A stretch of DNA of 64,000 nucleotides from an uncultured Allosphingosinicella sp. (GTDB lineage: Bacteria; Pseudomonadota; Alphaproteobacteria; Sphingomonadales; Sphingomonadaceae): assembly GCA_934539295.1 (NCBI GenBank), contig CAKTCN010000009.1:18231-82230 (forward strand), read 5' to 3'. Made by a program: the position numbers and the translations under genes. The notes beneath the pieces were generated by a model. That model was not told the origin of the DNA. It saw only the letters and a list, made by a program, of their open reading frames with translations, and did not search any database. This document shows, piece after piece, positions 26,629 through 61,844 of this stretch; positions within the stretch are counted from its first letter, which is position 1, and each line of letters opens with the position of its first letter.

Positions 26629-26659
26629 AAAAAGGACGCCGCAGTTTCCTGCGACGCCC
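26629..26659 (-). terminator. Terminator of the cytochrome bc1 operon
   Basis: On the minus strand GGGCGTCGCAG-GAAA-CTGCGGCGTCC forms an 11-bp stem (two G-U pairs) with a stable tetraloop and is followed by TTTTT. It lies 24 bases past the cytochrome c1 stop. Confidence 0.88.
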
Positions 26660-26683
26660 CTTTTGTTTTCAGCGCTTGGCCGA

Positions 26684-27517
26684 TCAGTGCTTCTGATCGC
26701 TCCACACGTTGCGATAGGCGAGGTAGCCGAGCGCGGTGGCGATGATCAGGAAGAAGAGGACGGCGACGCCGGTGCGGTGGCGGTTCTCGAGACGGGGTTC
26801 CGCGGTCCAGGTGAGGAAAGCCGCGACGTCCTTCGACATGTTGTCGACCGTCGGCTGGGTGCCGTCGGCATAGGTGACCTGGCCGTCCGAGGTGATGGGC
26901 GGCGGCATGGCGAGGTTCAGGTTCGGGAAGTAGGGGTTGTAGTGCAGCCCCGTCCCCGGACGTGCCTCCGCCGGAAGATCCGCCGGCGGGTTCTGATAGC
27001 CGGTCAGCAGCGAGTAGACGTAGGCCGGACCATGGTGGCGTGCCTTGGTGATCAGCGAAAGATCGGGCGGAAGCGCATTGTTGTTGGCAGCGCGCGCAGC
27101 CGTCTCGTTTGCATAAGGGTTGGGGAAGCGGTCGGCCGGAATGGCCTTGCGCGTCGCCGCCTCACCCGTCTCCGGATTGATGGACGGAACCTCGATCTGC
27201 CACTGGTTGGCGATCGCCTTCACCTCGGCCTCCGAATAGCCGATTTCTTCCAGGTTGCGGAACGAGACAAGGTTGAGGCCATGGCAGGCGGCGCAGACTT
27301 CCTTGTAGACCTGGAAGCCGCGCTGCAGCTGCTGACGGTCGTAGCGGCCGAAGGGGCCGTCCGACGCGAATTCGACGTGCTTCACATCCTTGTGGAAGCG
27401 GCCCTCGATCGTTTCCGGCTTGCCTTCGGAGATGAAGGTCGCCGCGCCCGTGATGAGCGAGATGGTGAGGACGAGGATGAAGCCGAGGCCGACGATGCCG
27501 GCAATCAAACGAAGCAT
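26684..27517 (-). CDS. Ubiquinol-cytochrome c reductase, cytochrome c1
   Basis: A 277-residue heme c subunit of complex III. It has an N-terminal membrane/signal segment and the heme-attachment site VCAACHGL (about residue 75). The axial Met is in NLNLAMPPPI, and a C-terminal membrane anchor reads TGVAVLFFLIIATALGYLAYRNVW. It is the third gene of the operon Rieske, cytochrome b, cytochrome c1, which is the usual order, and is followed by a terminator. It passes electrons from the Rieske centre to cytochrome c. Confidence 0.95.
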   Translation of the reverse strand: MLRLIAGIVGLGFILVLTISLITGAATFISEGKPETIEGRFHKDVKHVEFASDGPFGRYDRQQLQRGFQVYKEVCAACHGLNLVSFRNLEEIGYSEAEVKAIANQWQIEVPSINPETGEAATRKAIPADRFPNPYANETAARAANNNALPPDLSLITKARHHGPAYVYSLLTGYQNPPADLPAEARPGTGLHYNPYFPNLNLAMPPPITSDGQVTYADGTQPTVDNMSKDVAAFLTWTAEPRLENRHRTGVAVLFFLIIATALGYLAYRNVWSDQKH

Positions 27518-27529
27518 GTGTCCTTACCC

Positions 27530-28858
27530 TTATTCAGCAGGCACGGCGCGCGTGTCGCCGTTGGTGCCGCCATTGTTGCCGGGCGTCCCGAACGGGGCGG
27601 CTTCAGCCTTCTCGCCGTGCAGCACGCTTTCCGAGATGGAGTTCGGCAGTGGCAGCGTCGTCTCGAACTTCGAGATCAGCGGCAGGATGATGAGGAAGTG
27701 CGCGAAGTAATAGATCGTCGCGATCTGCGAGATGATCACGTACGGCTCCTCCGCCGGCGCACCGCCGCACCAGCCCAGGATCAGGACGTCCACCACCAGG
27801 ATGATGAAGAACATCTTGAACGTCGGACGGTAGCTGCCCGAACGCACCGGCGAGCGATCCAGCCAGGGCAGAAAGAAGAGCAGCAGGATCGATGCGAACA
27901 TCGCGATCACGCCCCACAGCTTCGCCGGCAGGATGAAGTCGACGGTGAAGGCGCGCAGGATCGCGTAGAAGGGCCAGAAATACCATTCGGGCACGATGTG
28001 CGCAGGCGTCGAGAGCGGGTTGGCCGGAATGTAATTGTCGGCATGGCCCAGATAGTTCGGCGCGAAGAAGAGCACGGTCGAGAAGGCGATCAGGAAGATG
28101 CCGAGCCCGAAGCCGTCCTTGGCCGTGTAATAGGGATGGAACGGCACGGTATCCTGCGCCGTCTTCACTTCCACACCCGTCGGGTTGCTGGACCCGTAGA
28201 TGTGCAGCGCCCAGACGTGGAGGATGACCACGCCGACGATCACGAACGGCAGCAGATAGTGGAGCGAGAAGAAGCGGTTGAGCGCAGCGTTGTCCGGCGC
28301 GAAACCGCCCAGCAGCCAGGTCTGGATCGGCTCGCCTACCAGCGGGATTGCACCGAACAGGCCGGTGATGACCTTGGCACCCCAGAAGCTCATCTGGCCC
28401 CAGGGAAGAACGTAGCCCATGAAGCCCGTCGCCATCATCAGGAGGAAGATGACGAGGCCGAGCATCCACACCATTTCGCGCGGCGCCTTGTACGATCCGT
28501 AGAAAAGGCCGCGGAAGATGTGGATGTAGACCACGATGAAGAAGAAGGAGGCGCCGTTGGCGTGGCCGTAGCGCAGCAGCCAACCCTGGTTCACGTCGCG
28601 CATGATATGCTCGACCGAGTTGAACGCGGCATCGGCATAAGGCGTGTAGTGCATCGCCAGGATCACGCCCGACAGGATCTGGATGACCAGAGCCGCGCCG
28701 GCGAGAATGCCGAAATTCCAGAAATAGTTGAGGTTGCGCGGCACCGGATAGCCGGCGCCGACCGCATTGTAGACGAAGCGCGGCAGCGGAAGACGGTCGT
28801 CGATCCACTGCGTGAGCGCGAACTTAGGCTTGTATTGGTTTGCCCAGGGGAAGCTCAT
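27530..28858 (-). CDS. Ubiquinol-cytochrome c reductase, cytochrome b
   Basis: A 442-residue polytopic subunit carrying the two b hemes and both quinol sites. Conserved features are the Qo-site [34 protein letters not shown], and histidines in [25 protein letters not shown] and [25 protein letters not shown]. The tail ([11 protein letters not shown]) extends slightly past the last helix. It lies 12 bases upstream of the cytochrome c1 gene and 11 bases after the Rieske gene. Confidence 0.96.
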
Positions 28859-28869
28859 CTCAGTCTACC

Positions 28870-29436
28870 TCAACCGATCCGGACGACAGTGTCGGATACG
28901 AATGCGTATTCCGGCACCTCGAGGTTCAATGGGGCCGGACCCTTACGGATGCGACCGGCCGTGTCGTAGTGCGAACCGTGGCAGGGGCAGAAATAGCCGC
29001 CATATTCGCCTTTGTTCTCACCCGGACCGGCGCCGAGCGGCACGCAGCCCAGGTGCGTACACACGCCCATGGTGATGAGCCAGTTGGTCTTACCCTCCAG
29101 CGTGCGTTCCGCCAGCGTCTGGGGATCGCGCAGGTCGGACGGCGACACCGCGTCGGCCTGCTGCTGCTCCTGCGGCGTCAGGTTGCGGATGAACACCGGC
29201 TGCTTGCGCCAGATGGTCTTGATCGCCTGCCCCGGCTGGATCGCCGAGATGTCGATTTCGGCCGAGGCGAGCGCGAGCACGTCGGCCGACGGGTTCATCT
29301 GGTTCACCAGCGGGTAGACGCAGGCAAGCGCGCCGACCCCGGCGAAGCTTACTGCAGCGATATTGATGAAGTCGCGGCGGCGCACGCCATCGGGCGTCAC
29401 GTCCATCGTCCCATCATTATGTTCAACCGTCGCCAT
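28870..29436 (-). CDS. petA: Ubiquinol-cytochrome c reductase, Rieske iron-sulfur subunit
   Basis: A 188-residue protein. The twin-arginine-type N-terminal anchor [15 protein letters not shown] directs folded export. The [2Fe-2S] ligands are in [12 protein letters not shown] and [11 protein letters not shown]. Length is normal. It is the first gene of the bc1 operon, with AAGGA upstream. The 198 bases before it hold no gene that I can see and should contain the operon promoter, although no clear -35/-10 pair was found. Confidence 0.95.
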
Positions 29437-29634: not shown

Positions 29635-30084
29635 ATGCGCCTTGCCCTCCACCAGCCCGACCAGCCGGGAAATGTCGGCACGATCCTGCGCCTGGGGGCG
29701 TGTCTCGCCACGCCCGTGGACGTGATCGAACCTTGCGGATTCCCCTTCTCCCACGCTGCCTTGAAGCGGGCCGGGATGGACTATGTGGAGATCGCCAATG
29801 TGCGCCGGCACGCGAGCTGGGAAGCATTTCGCGCAGGTGTCGGCGGGCGGATCGTCCTGCTGACCACAAAGGCGGACCTGCGCATTGACGAAGCGCAATT
29901 TGCGGCCGGCGACATCCTGCTAATGGGGTCGGAGAGCAGCGGCGTGTCGGACGCGGTCCATGCCGCTGCCGATCTTCGGGTGCGGATACCGCAGGCGGCG
30001 GGCACCCGGTCCTTGAACATTGCGCTGGCGGCGGGCATCGCGCTTGCCGAAGCGCTGAGGCAGTTGAACGGATTTCCCCGATGA
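29635..30084 (+). CDS. trmL: tRNA (cytidine/uridine-34-2'-O)-methyltransferase TrmL
   Basis: A 149-residue minimal SPOUT methyltransferase that modifies the wobble base of tRNA-Leu. Its N-terminus [18 protein letters not shown] contains the conserved N-x-G. The AdoMet-binding knot is [12 protein letters not shown], then [27 protein letters not shown]. Length matches the family. Its TGA overlaps the ATG of hemF (ATGA), so hemF translation is coupled to it. Confidence 0.93.
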
Positions 30085-30946
30085 GCGAACCCACCATCCC
30101 CGACACGACAGGTTTGGAACTGGACGGCGAACAGCAGGCCGCGCGCAGCTGGTTCGAATCGCTGCGCAACCGGATCTGTGCCGAATTCGAGGCGATCGAG
30201 CGCGAGGCGGGCAGCGATGCCGGTTTCGATTACGTTGCCTGGAACCGGGAGGATCCGAGCGGGGAGGCGCAGGCGTGCGCGGCGTGATGAAGGGCAAGGT
30301 GTTCGAGAAAGTGGGCGTGAACGTGTCCACCGTGGGGGGCAGCTTCAGCCCCGAATTCGCAAAGACGATCAATGGCGCGGCCGAGGATCCTCGCTTCTTC
30401 GCCACCGGTATCAGCCTGGTCGCGCACATGGCCAACCCGCACGTGCCGGCGGTGCACATGAACACGCGCTTCCTGGTCACCACCAAGCGCTGGTTCGGCG
30501 GCGGCGCGGACCTGAACCCGCCGATTCCGTATGAAGGGGATACGGCCGAGTTTCATGCGCGTCTGCGTGCGGCATGTGCGGCGCACGACCCGACTTATTA
30601 TCCGCGCTTCTCGAAATGGGCGGACGAATATTTCTTCATTCCGCACCGCAACGTCCATCGGGGTGTCGGCGGCATCTTCTACGACCATCTGGAAGGGCAG
30701 TTCGACGCGCATTTCGCCTTCACGCGGGACGTAGGCGAGGCGTTCCTGGACGTCTTCCCGCGGATCGTGCGGCGGCGCATGGGTATGGAGTTCACGCAAG
30801 CGGACAAGGCGCGGCAGCTGGAATGGCGCGGTCGCTATGCCGAGTTCAACCTGATCTACGACCGGGGCACCTTGTTCGGGCTCAAGACCGGCGGCAATGT
30901 CGACGCGATCCTGATGAGCCTGCCGCCGGAGGCGACGTGGAGCTGA
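30081..30946 (+). pseudogene. hemF: Coproporphyrinogen III oxidase, aerobic (frameshifted hemF)
   Basis: The first 64 residues (30081-30272; [39 protein letters not shown]) and the last 224 (about 30272-30946) lie in different frames. The second part holds all diagnostic HemF motifs: [50 protein letters not shown] and [17 protein letters not shown]. Frame 1 stops at 30287. Reading one extra G after CAG at 30270-30272 would give [12 protein letters not shown] and restore a roughly 289-residue enzyme of normal length. So one base is missing from a G run: a real mutation or a sequencing error. If real, heme synthesis would need another oxidase such as HemN. The gene is coupled to trmL. Confidence 0.9.
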
Positions 30947-30967
30947 TATGGGCGAGCTGATATGGGC
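30940..30967. repeat. 14-bp tandem duplication at the hemF/GNAT junction
   Basis: GAGCTGATATGGGC occurs twice in direct succession. Copy 1 contains the hemF stop codon and an ATG that soon stops; copy 2 contains the ATG (30962) used by the GNAT gene. It looks like a recent slippage or unequal-exchange duplication. Confidence 0.85.
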
Positions 30968-31555
30968 GGGCTGATCGACATAGCGCCGGGCGAGGTCGGC
31001 ACGGTCGTGACTTTCCTCGAGATGCGAGAGCGGCCGAAGCTTCGTCCGCTACCCCCTTCCCCGCTCAGGATCATGCCCTGGACCGACATCCGGCCCGATC
31101 AGTATCGCGTGCTGTTCCGGCGCGTGGGCGGGCGCTGGCTGTGGTTCTCGCGATTGCGGATGGACGATGCGACGCTGATGGCGAACATCGCCGAGCTGCA
31201 CGTGGTGCGCGATCCGCGCGGCGTGGAGGTCGGGATGCTGGAGCTCGATTTCTCGACCGCTGGCGAATGCCTGATCCGTTTCCTGGGGCTGGTGCCGGAA
31301 CTGGCCGGCAAGGGGCACGGCAAGTGGCTGTTCGGGCAGGTCATGGCGCTGACATGGCGCGCCGGAATCAGCCGGGTGCATGTGACCACCTGCAGCCTCG
31401 ATCATCCGGCAGCGCTGCCCTCTTACATTAGGGCAGGTTTTGTCGCCTACAGGCGCGCGTTCGAAAGCTTCCCCGACCCGCGCCTCATCGGCGCACTGCC
31501 GGTGGATGCGGCCCCTCAGATCCCCGTGCTGGGCTCATCCGCCAGCTGCGTGTAG
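30962..31555 (+). CDS. GNAT-family N-acetyltransferase
   Basis: A 197-residue protein. The acetyl-CoA-binding core is at about residues 105-160: LIRFLGLVPELAGKGHGKWLFGQVMALTW, where the G-x-G-H-G loop stands in for the usual Q/RxxGxG/A, followed by RVHVTTCSLDHPAALPSYIRAGFVAYRRA, a typical beta5-alpha4 region. The acceptor is unknown. It starts in the second copy of a 14-bp tandem repeat, 16 bases after the hemF stop. Its last 40 bases overlap the convergent membrane-protein gene. Confidence 0.85.
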   Translation: MGGLIDIAPGEVGTVVTFLEMRERPKLRPLPPSPLRIMPWTDIRPDQYRVLFRRVGGRWLWFSRLRMDDATLMANIAELHVVRDPRGVEVGMLELDFSTAGECLIRFLGLVPELAGKGHGKWLFGQVMALTWRAGISRVHVTTCSLDHPAALPSYIRAGFVAYRRAFESFPDPRLIGALPVDAAPQIPVLGSSASCV

Positions 31556-34402: not shown

Positions 34403-35029
34403 CTACGGCAGCCCCAGCAGCTTGTGGGTCTGGAGCGTCAGGCTCCAGCGCGGGTTTGCCATCACATAGGCGATCGCCGCTTCCAGGTTCGCGGCCCGGT
34501 TCACGTCGTCCTTGGGCTGGATCAGGAAAGCGTCGAAATCGAACGCCAGCAGCGACTGTGGATCGAGCCCGGCCTGCGGCCAGACCAGCTTGAGCTCGCT
34601 GCCGCAGGTCTGGACGATCGCGTTTCCCGCCTTGGGACTGACGCAGATCCAGTCGATGCCGGGCGGCGCCGCAACGGTGCCGTTGGTCTCGACCGCAATC
34701 TCGAAACCGCGGGCATGGAGCGCGTGGATCAGCGCGGCGTCGAGTTGCAGCAGGGGTTCGCCCCCTGTGACCACCACGAGCGGACGGGCACCCTCGCCCC
34801 ACAATGTGGCGACCTGGCCGGCCAGCGCATCCGCTTCGTAGCGGCCGCCATTCTCGCCATCCATGCCGACGAAATCGGTGTCGCAAAAGGTGCAGCGCGC
34901 GTCGGCGCGATCCTGTTCGCGTCCCGTCCAGAGGTTGCATCCGGACAGGCGCAGGAAGACGGCGCGGCGGCCGGCCTGCATGCCCTCCCCCTGCAGGGTG
35001 AGGAATATCTCCTTGACCGCGTAGCTCAT
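34403..35029 (-). CDS. queE: 7-carboxy-7-deazaguanine synthase
   Basis: A 208-residue radical-SAM enzyme of the queuosine/7-deazaguanine pathway, converting CPH4 to CDG. The cluster motif is the long-linker form C-x14-C-x2-C (SGCNLWTG ... ARCTFCDTDF) that is known for one QueE class. Also present are IFLTLQGEGMQAG and VVVTGGEPLLQLD. ATG 35029 gives the standard MSYAVKEIFLTLQGEG start. It begins 7 bases after the queC stop, forming an operon. Confidence 0.95.
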   Translation of the reverse strand: MSYAVKEIFLTLQGEGMQAGRRAVFLRLSGCNLWTGREQDRADARCTFCDTDFVGMDGENGGRYEADALAGQVATLWGEGARPLVVVTGGEPLLQLDAALIHALHARGFEIAVETNGTVAAPPGIDWICVSPKAGNAIVQTCGSELKLVWPQAGLDPQSLLAFDFDAFLIQPKDDVNRAANLEAAIAYVMANPRWSLTLQTHKLLGLP

Positions 35030-35036
35030 GCGCCGG

Positions 35037-35741
35037 TCACGGCTGGGCGGCGTAGCGGGTGGGGTCCGGGAGGCCGGCCTCTTCATAGCCCTTGGACCGC
35101 AAGCGGCAGCTGTCGCACAAGCCGCAATGCAGCCCCAGCGGCGCGGGATCGTAGCAGGACCAGCTCATGCCCGCGTCGAGACCGAGACGATCCGCCTCGC
35201 GGGCGATGTCGGCCTTGCTCATGTGCTGAAGGGGGGCATGAACGGTGAAGCCCTGCCCCTCCGTTCCGGCCTTGGTCGCAATGTTGGCGAGCCGTTCGAA
35301 GGCGGCGATGAATTCCGGCCGGCAATCGGGATAGCCGGAATAATCGAGCGCGTTGACGCCGATGAACATGTCGCGTGCGCCCGCCGCTTCTGCCCAGCCA
35401 AGGCACAGCGAAAGGAAGATGGTATTGCGCGCAGGCACGTAGGTGACAGGGATGCCGGGCTCCACCCCGCCCTTCGGCACGGCGATATCGTCGGTGAGTG
35501 CGGAACCGCCGAAGCCGGTGAGGTCGAGCGGCAGCACGATGTGGCGCTCGGCACCGAGCAAAGCAGCGATGGTGCGGGCCGCGTCGATCTCCACGCGGTG
35601 ACGCTGGTTATAGTCGATCGTCAGCGCAAGCAGGCGGAAACCCCGTTCCCGCGCCAGTGCGGCCGAGACCATGGAGTCGAGCCCGCCGGACAGGAGCACG
35701 ACGGCAAGGGGGGGAGCTTTGGCGTTCTGTTCGAAGGACAT
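35037..35741 (-). CDS. queC: 7-cyano-7-deazaguanine synthase
   Basis: A 234-residue ATP-dependent ligase converting CDG to preQ0. The PP-loop [15 protein letters not shown] (residues about 14-28) is intact. The zinc site is in the C-terminal SWSCYDP and LHCGLCDSC segment. [18 protein letters not shown] and [16 protein letters not shown] are family signatures. It precedes queE. Other pathway genes (queD, folE-type, queF/tgt) are not in the window. Confidence 0.96.
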
Positions 35742-59722: not shown

Positions 59723-59741
59723 TTTCGCGATGACGAAAGGC

Positions 59742-60164
59742 TCAGCCTTCCGCGCTCTCCGTCTGGGGAGCGGCGGCAGCTGCGGCCGCGGCCTTCTCCG
59801 GACGCGTGTCGCGGCGCTCGGCGATACGCGCCGACTTGCCGGTGCGGCCACGCAGATAATAGAGCTTCGCGCGACGCACGACACCGCGGCGCACGACCTC
59901 GATCGAATCGATGTTCGGCGAATAGAGCGGGAAGACGCGCTCGACGCCCTCGCCGAAGCTGATTTTCCGGACAGTGAAGCTCGAGCCCATGCCGCGGTTC
60001 GAGCGCGCGATGCACACGCCCTCATAGTTCTGCACGCGGGTGCGCTCGCCTTCGACGACCTTCACGCCGATCTTCAGCGTGTCGCCCGCGCGGAATTCCG
60101 GAATCTTCTTCGCCTCGTTGAACTTGGCGATCTGCTCGGCTTCGAGCGTCTGGATGAGGTTCAT
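59742..60164 (-). CDS. rplS: 50S ribosomal protein L19
   Basis: A 140-residue protein at the 30S-50S interface. Family sequence is clear: [84 protein letters not shown]. The Ala-rich tail ([13 protein letters not shown]) is longer than usual. ATG 60164 has GAGGA 8 bases upstream and starts two bases after the trmD stop. rplS is normally last in rpsP-rimM-trmD-rplS. Confidence 0.96.
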
Positions 60165-60165
60165 G

Positions 60166-60897
60166 TCAGTCTTCCTCGTCATGTCGCCGCGCGCCAGAGG
60201 GAGGTCGGACCCGAGCGCCCTCATGGCGCTCCCAAAGATCCGGCCTCCGTAGCCGTGTATCGACCTCGGCCCTGTGCTTTCGCCAGGCCGCGATCTTCGC
60301 ATGATCCCCCGATCGCAGCACTTCGGGGATCGTGCGCCCTTCCCATGTCACTGGTCGGGTATATTGCGGATATTCGAGCAGCCCCGTCTCGAAGCTCTCG
60401 TCATCCCCGCTGGAAGCCGCGCCCATTACTCCTGGAAGCAGCCGGATGCAAGCATCCAGCAGCACCAGCGCCGCCATCTCCCCGCCCGACAGCACGTAAT
60501 CGCCGATCGACACCTGTTCGATGCCGCGGCCCTCGAACAGGCGTTCGTCCATGCCTTCGAAGCGGCCGCAGACCAGCGTCACCCCCGGCCCGGCCGCGAT
60601 CTCCCGCACGCGCGCCTGCGACAAGGGGCGACCGCGCGGCGTCATCGCCAGCACCGGCCGCCCCTCCCCTTGCGCATCCAGCGCGGCGGCGAGCACGTCG
60701 GCGCGCATCACCATGCCTGCGCCTCCGCCCGCCGGCGTGTCGTCGACCGAGCGGTGGCGGTCGGTCGCGAAGTCGCGGATCTGCACGGCATCGAGCGACC
60801 AGCGTTCTTCGCGCAGCGCGCGCCCGGCAAGCGATATGCCGAGTGGGCCGGGAAACATTTCCGGGTAAAGCGTTAGAATGGTGGCGGCGAACGACAT
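60166..60897 (-). CDS. trmD: tRNA (guanine-37-N1)-methyltransferase
   Basis: A 243-residue SPOUT methyltransferase preventing frameshifting at Pro/Leu/Arg codons. Landmarks are the N-terminal [14 protein letters not shown], the conserved [19 protein letters not shown], the knot [33 protein letters not shown], and the C-terminal LEYPQYTRP. Start ATG 60897. It is separated from rimM by about 2.7 kb of other genes, and only 29 bases separate its start from the divergent flavoprotein start. Confidence 0.96.
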
Positions 60898-60926
60898 GCC
60901 CGCCCTTTGCGACGGATGGGAACGGA

Positions 60927-61844
60927 ATGACAAGCGCAGCCGACGACTGCATCATCATCGGCGCCGGCCCGGCGGGGCTGACCGCCGCGATCTACCTGGC
61001 GCGTTTCCACCTCTCGATCCGCATGTTCGACTGCGGCTCCAGCCGCGCGGCGTGGATCCCGTGCACGCACAACCATGCCGGCTATCCCGGCGGCATCGAG
61101 GGCATCGAGCTGCTGCGGCTGATGCGGTTGCAGGCGGAGGAATATGGCGCGGTGCGCGAAGCCGCGCGCGTCACCGCCATCGAGCGCGACGGCGAGAACT
61201 TCGTGGTATGCGTCGGCGACCAGCGCTTCCCCGCGCGCAGCGTGCTGCTGGCGACCGGGGTGGTCAACCACCGGCCGGACATGCCGCAGGACTTCCACGA
61301 CGAAGCGGTGCGGCGCGGGCTGCTGCGCTATTGCCCGATCTGCGACGGCTACGAAGTCACCGACAAGCGCGTGGGCGTGATCGGCACCAGCGACCATGGC
61401 ATGCGCGAGGCGCTGTTCCTGCGCGGCTACACCCGCGACGTGACGCTGATCGCGCCCGACAGCGACCATGATCTCGACGCGGCCTGCATCGCCAAGCTCG
61501 ATGCGGCAGGCATTGCGCGCGCCGATGGTCCGTGCGGCGGCTTCCGCATCGACGGCGACCGCTTCGTGGTGGAAACCGCAGACGGCGAGCTTGCGTTCGA
61601 CAGCGTGTACCCGGCGATGGGATCGCACATCCGTTCGGAACTGGCGGTCGGCGCCGGCGCGGAAGCGAGCGAGGACGGCTGCATGGTGGTGGACGATCAC
61701 CAGCGCACCACCGTCCCCGGCCTGTTCGCCGCCGGAGACGTGGTGAAGGGCCTCGACCAGATCAGCCACGCGATGGGCGAGGCCGGCGTCGCGGCCACCA
61801 CCATCCGCAACCTGCTGAGCGAACGCGCGCCCTTGTGGCGGTAG
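60927..61844 (+). CDS. Thioredoxin-reductase-like flavoprotein with degenerate NAD(P)H motif
   Basis: A 305-residue protein of TrxR size. The FAD-binding motif is intact ([19 protein letters not shown]), as is the ending [23 protein letters not shown]. The redox pair CPIC (C136/C139) is in the normal place ([13 protein letters not shown]). The NADPH-binding glycine motif expected near residue 152 is replaced by [14 protein letters not shown], so NADPH use is doubtful. The substrate and electron donor are unknown. It is divergent from trmD and lies in the segment that splits rimM from trmD. Confidence 0.87.

Follow-up and report, generated by a model that had tools for sequence, protein, structure and literature searches.

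In the 64,000-nucleotide stretch analysed here (the window), hemF, the gene for the oxygen-dependent coproporphyrinogen III oxidase of heme synthesis, lies on the plus strand as two ORFs that encode consecutive parts of HemF in different reading frames, a 68-aa ORF opening with ATG and a 223-aa ORF opening with GTG (Table 1). The two frames differ by -1 and the open frames overlap; an alternative ATG at 30287 stands in the frame of the 223-aa ORF. A SpoU-family methyltransferase gene precedes hemF and a gene for a GNAT-like acetyltransferase follows it. The bc1 genes lie on the opposite strand, and a preliminary description of the locus was right to call this operon intact, since Pfam identifies its members and each has a near full-length, unsplit match in G061, one of the nearest genomes. 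A heme oxygenase, which the same description placed close by, was absent from the 26 window ORFs scanned with Pfam (a subset of the ORFs in the window).

Table 1. Features at and around the hemF locus (positions in the window)
Feature	Position	Strand	Remarks
bc1 genes	26684..29436	-	Rieske 28870-29436, cytochrome b 27530-28858, cytochrome c1 26684-27517; Pfam
SpoU-family methyltransferase	29635..30084	+	PF00588; unsplit against G061, intact; overlaps the hemF start
Upstream hemF piece	30081..30287	+	68-aa ORF, ATG to TGA; HemF frame kept to about residue 58, then lost
Zone of break	about 30255..30266	+	net 7 nt short, just before or at the Gly-rich loop; gap placement mostly after 30253-30265
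SD-like GGGGAGG (30261-30267), 7-nt spacer, GTG start (30275)	30261..30277	+	possible re-initiation site (putative function)
Downstream hemF piece	30275..30946	+	223-aa ORF from GTG; PF01218, NF003727
Stop codon (TGA) closing the upstream hemF frame	30285..30287	+
GNAT-like acetyltransferase (name from relatives)	30962..31555	+	unsplit; identical protein on 3 contigs

The 223-aa half matches PF01218 with 281 bits (cut-off 31.8) over profile positions 45-271 of 295, and NF003727 with 331 bits, above the cut-off of 297. The 68-aa half, scanned alone against Pfam, has no match; in the protein database it matches HemF N-termini, for example P0123 (coproporphyrinogen III oxidase), at 84% identity over 66% of its length. 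Both halves are spanned by one 283-aa ORF of the related genome G137, residues 5-55 of which match the first frame and residues 55-283 the second, so the split is present in the sequence and is no chance overlap of frames. Together these matches confirm the preliminary reading of two consecutive HemF halves at these coordinates. The window holds no full-length single HemF ORF with the N-terminal helix and first strands, and no Gly-rich run in frame and at the family spacing before VRG/TRG: GGAG occurs in the downstream frame only. In this sequence the gene carries a frame-destroying lesion of the kind that marks a pseudogene, and we regard it as a housekeeping gene whose frame is broken in an ordinary way.

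The lesion proved to be neither as small as the preliminary description had it, a single base, nor at the site it gave (30270-30274). A conserved Trp has its codon at 30240 in the window, and the codon for the Phe of VFEK follows 62 nt later, at 30302. The same distance in 82 relatives (80 contig loci, G137 and G061) is 23 codons (69 nt) in 77, 24 in one, 25 in one, 27 in two and 29 in one; it is also at least 23 codons in all 112 measurable proteins among the 120 listed from the database (the window's own is one of the eight that were unmeasurable, and P0081 is overestimated, an earlier Trp having been picked). The window's hemF is therefore short by a net 7 nt against the usual length of its relatives. 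Joining the frames with one extra G, which had been expected to restore all signature motifs, gives 21 codons between Trp and Phe, two below every one of the 82 relatives, and a protein that lacks the Gly run. This run is GGG or longer in 81 of the 82 relatives and GGSG in the other, and two solved chains in the alignment, 8t7w and the mitochondrial 2aex, have it too.

The break lies upstream of the site first proposed. Already from 30257 the downstream frame aligns beside E-P-G-G-G-G-V-R-G-L-M-K of G137, and the upstream frame reads D-P-S-G-E up to 30266, as in some relatives; together these confine the break to about 30255-30266. Pairwise alignments mostly place the gap after 30253-30265, and we used this placement alone, because the net gap length of 7 found in 80 of the 82 alignments is forced by the chosen segment lengths and is not evidence. 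The loop at the break site is GGC-rich in the relatives. Slippage on a 7-nt tandem repeat stays a guess as the cause: six of the 82 relatives match 6 of 7 loop positions and 16 match 5 of 7, counts that come with no control.

The nearest public sequences come from Allosphingosinicella, Sphingosinicella and other sphingomonads, and, in line with the preliminary expectation of intact relatives, the frame is open through the site in all 80 related loci and stays so for 59 codons or more ahead of the match; none shares the split. In the family at large 295 of 298 genomes match the 223-aa query, without internal stops among the matches listed. Nine odd genomes were inspected individually. In one (G015) hemF is frame-broken, in two (G064, G151) its pieces lie on separate contigs, one (G276) has a partial match, and three (G030, G273, G287) have none. 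G273 has HemN above the cut-off and may be a natural HemF loss or an incomplete genome. The other two of the nine, G017 (L093) and G297 (L094), each have a hemF match with one internal stop (TGA and TAA, respectively), and G297 has a second copy without a stop. In G015 (loci L096, L101) a HemN-like gene is also split, with several stops, and the assembly looks error-rich.

We compared the window with the protein database as well, scoring 8000 candidates and listing the best 120 from a database clustered at 90%. Identical copies of the 223-aa and the 68-aa protein each occur on two contigs, the longest of 82,230 bases. The next HemF among the matches listed is intact, with 280 aa and 91% identity, and no intact one above 91% is among them. 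Both contigs may have been assembled from one set of reads; the third contig, which carries the neighbouring protein, may end before hemF, or it may lack the break or hold another allele. Several truncated HemF proteins also occur in the database. Three of 219 aa (P0092, P0106, P0107) start at a Met just past the Gly loop, the layout of the window's downstream piece, and lie on contigs of 1.0-1.8 kb, so they may be contig-end artefacts. Five N-terminal fragments of 62-66 aa (P0165, P0179, P0188, P0189, P0190), on contigs of 80-781 kb, seem to go out of frame ahead of the Gly loop; such breaks may be collected by a hidden stop that lies out of frame just past the loop. Two records appear mislabelled or contaminated: L071 (RPSH01000012.1), titled Bacillus sp. 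2B10, carries a sphingomonad-type hemF with 81% identity to the 223-aa piece and its name looks wrong or the record contaminated, and P0135, a partial hypothetical protein labelled Enterobacter hormaechei on a 264-base contig, has 73% identity to the window's sphingomonad HemF N-terminus and is probably contamination.

We slightly favour a very recent loss-of-function deletion over an assembly fault. The preliminary description had named real mutation and assembly error as the alternatives, and these are indeed the two serious readings. That a net 7 nt is truly gone from an Allosphingosinicella-like hemF, ahead of its conserved Gly run, and that the gene very recently lost its function in this way, is in our judgement an even proposition. 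Such a loss in the loop just before the Gly run would throw hemF out of frame; translation from 30081 would leave the frame and end at the TGA at 30285, yielding a presumably inert 68-aa peptide; the GTG at 30275, with the SD-like sequence ahead of it, could serve as the start of a 223-aa product; and heme would then be made via HemN encoded outside the window.

Support for a real deletion comes first from the quality of the surrounding sequence. When the ORFs of G137 and G061 were compared with the window, hemF alone was split into two frames among the 52 best regions (2.6-64 kb; these include a few shadow frames, such as 26645-28966 over bc1, so the true gene number is slightly lower), which argues against a generally error-rich sequence. 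We found no support for a generally error-rich assembly as the explanation. Three of the 52 rows had stops inside the match and were judged benign, two seeming to overrun the true start codon and one looking like an antisense shadow. A looser scan, in which 82 sources supplied the ORFs, marked 11 places. The hemF site was marked by 146 ORFs belonging to 81 sources; the runners-up, near 30900 and 35100, were marked by 14 and 13 sources, respectively. To us the places other than hemF, not each of which was inspected, look like shadow frames or like ORFs that are fused in the relatives; unsplit matches to ORFs of G137 or G061 exist for both genes at 34421-35720 and for the gene at 30971-31549. 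Elsewhere in the window, a 704-aa ORF at 59730-61844 is probably half spurious, its first 400 codons overlying minus-strand genes at 59796-60200 and 60175-60918 (G137 matches of 87% and 75%).

The deletion is supported further by the identity of both halves on two contigs, with no intact copy above 91% among the matches listed, and by its size and setting. Sequencing slips do not usually take the form of 7 nt lost outside a homopolymer.

Whether the organism could bear the loss turns on HemN. HemF is needed for heme where HemN is absent, so that a real loss of hemF asks for HemN elsewhere in the genome; the 28 window ORFs scanned against NCBIfam contain none. HemN (TIGR00538) is above the cut-off in 124 of the 298 family genomes, a low estimate, several genomes falling just under it, and in 13 of 23 genomes selected for closer study (the 20 with the best matches to HemF, plus three that lack hemF). 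In Escherichia coli, according to PMC9576991, a hemF mutant activates heme-dependent enzymes without defect and HemN is taken as the main coproporphyrinogen oxidase in air; the breadth of HemN in the family and the tolerance of this mutant both favour a real deletion. Against it stands the near-universal retention of hemF in the family, and closer to the window the picture is also less favourable: only one of the eight genomes first reached via the loci has HemN above the cut-off, seven do not, and none of the three nearest genomes by HemF identity (G137, G061, G001) has HemN above the curated cut-off, so that in these three the loss of HemF should be lethal. A literature search for hemF frameshifts with heme auxotrophy found no report; the papers listed on glycine-rich regions in coproporphyrinogen oxidase structures did not bear on this case, and the one paper found on frameshifts in metagenome assemblies dealt with a trypanosome.

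Nor does selection speak for the deletion. In the 223-aa part pN/pS is 0.115-0.175 between the window and six relatives (6 pairs) and 0.105-0.201 among intact relatives (15 pairs); in the N-terminal 41 codons it is 0.163-0.304 for window pairs against 0.103-0.374 among relatives, in a test that is weak because synonymous sites are far diverged. Window values thus stay within the intact range, with no signal of relaxed selection or ongoing decay; after a recent break such a signal would be missing too. There is no hint of an old pseudogene, and pN/pS cannot tell a recent mutation and an artefact apart.

The second serious reading, to which we give somewhat less than an even chance, is that the organism's hemF is intact and that the assembly or its consensus went wrong in a stretch rich in GC and in GGC. 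An error would readily account for a break in a gene that nearly every family genome keeps, for nearest genomes without HemN above the cut-off, for two halves that are each constrained as in intact genes, and for a position in a loop that is GGC-rich in the relatives; the family draw moreover includes G015, where hemF and a HemN-like gene are both frame-broken, as an error-rich assembly would leave them. It would also be consistent with two contigs built from shared reads, and with a third contig, bearing the neighbour, that may lack the break. An error fits less well with a lesion of 7 nt rather than 1, with a single split among 52 regions, and with the same halves on two contigs.

It is very unlikely that the pieces are still active, whether through re-initiation at the GTG at 30275, giving a 223-aa HemF, or through the assembly of two chains. 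The SD-like GGGGAGG 7 nt before the GTG, the purifying constraint on the 223-aa part and its score above the NF003727 cut-off would all suit a working product, but a recent break would leave the constraint intact as well, the arrangement occurs in none of the 80 loci, and a product begun at the GTG would not include the Gly run. A structure model of the intact relative P0005 is of moderate quality (mean pLDDT 63.5 overall, 74-94 over residues 1-70) and has a helix at residues 6-32 and strands at 40-47, 53-62 and 67-80; judged from this model, the 223-aa product would be missing the first helix and the first strands, and it probably has no activity. A related scenario is a long shot: in a sphingomonad population whose nearest relatives lack HemN, hemF would either be truly lost or still function as an N-terminally truncated enzyme of 223 aa, and the heme would then have an unusual origin or be supplied by a minimal HemF. 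Programmed -1 ribosomal frameshifting, raised in the preliminary description as a rescue, would suit the -1 relation and overlap of the open frames, but we reject it as having next to no chance of being correct, because no canonical X XXY YYZ slippery heptamer occurs in any frame of 30081-30290, none of the 80 related loci is split, and the joined product would be two codons short of all 82 relatives.

If the deletion is real, this hemF adds another case of an aerobic heme enzyme recently lost, and a modest test of how far HemN carries aerobic heme synthesis in sphingomonads. If it is an artefact, it is a warning against calling heme auxotrophy from single metagenome contigs. In either case it matters that the lesion is one of 7 nt, where 1 nt had been proposed, before the break is dismissed as a homopolymer slip.

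Compared with the intact hemF loci of G137 and G061, the window has the same order of SpoU methyltransferase, hemF and GNAT genes. The frame-broken hemF of G015 likewise lies in two frames, but its break is near residue 182-187, whereas the window breaks at the Gly loop, and in G015 the HemN-like gene is broken too. The gene dnaX is a programmed frameshift gene, and genes of its type share with the window's hemF the -1 relation of frames; the window differs in having no slippery heptamer and a split that is not conserved. Set against HemF itself (PF01218, NF003727; solved chains 8t7w and the mitochondrial 2aex), the 223-aa half covers most of the PF01218 profile (positions 45-271), while the N-terminal helix and strands stand in the other frame, 7 nt are missing, and no uninterrupted ORF joins the two.
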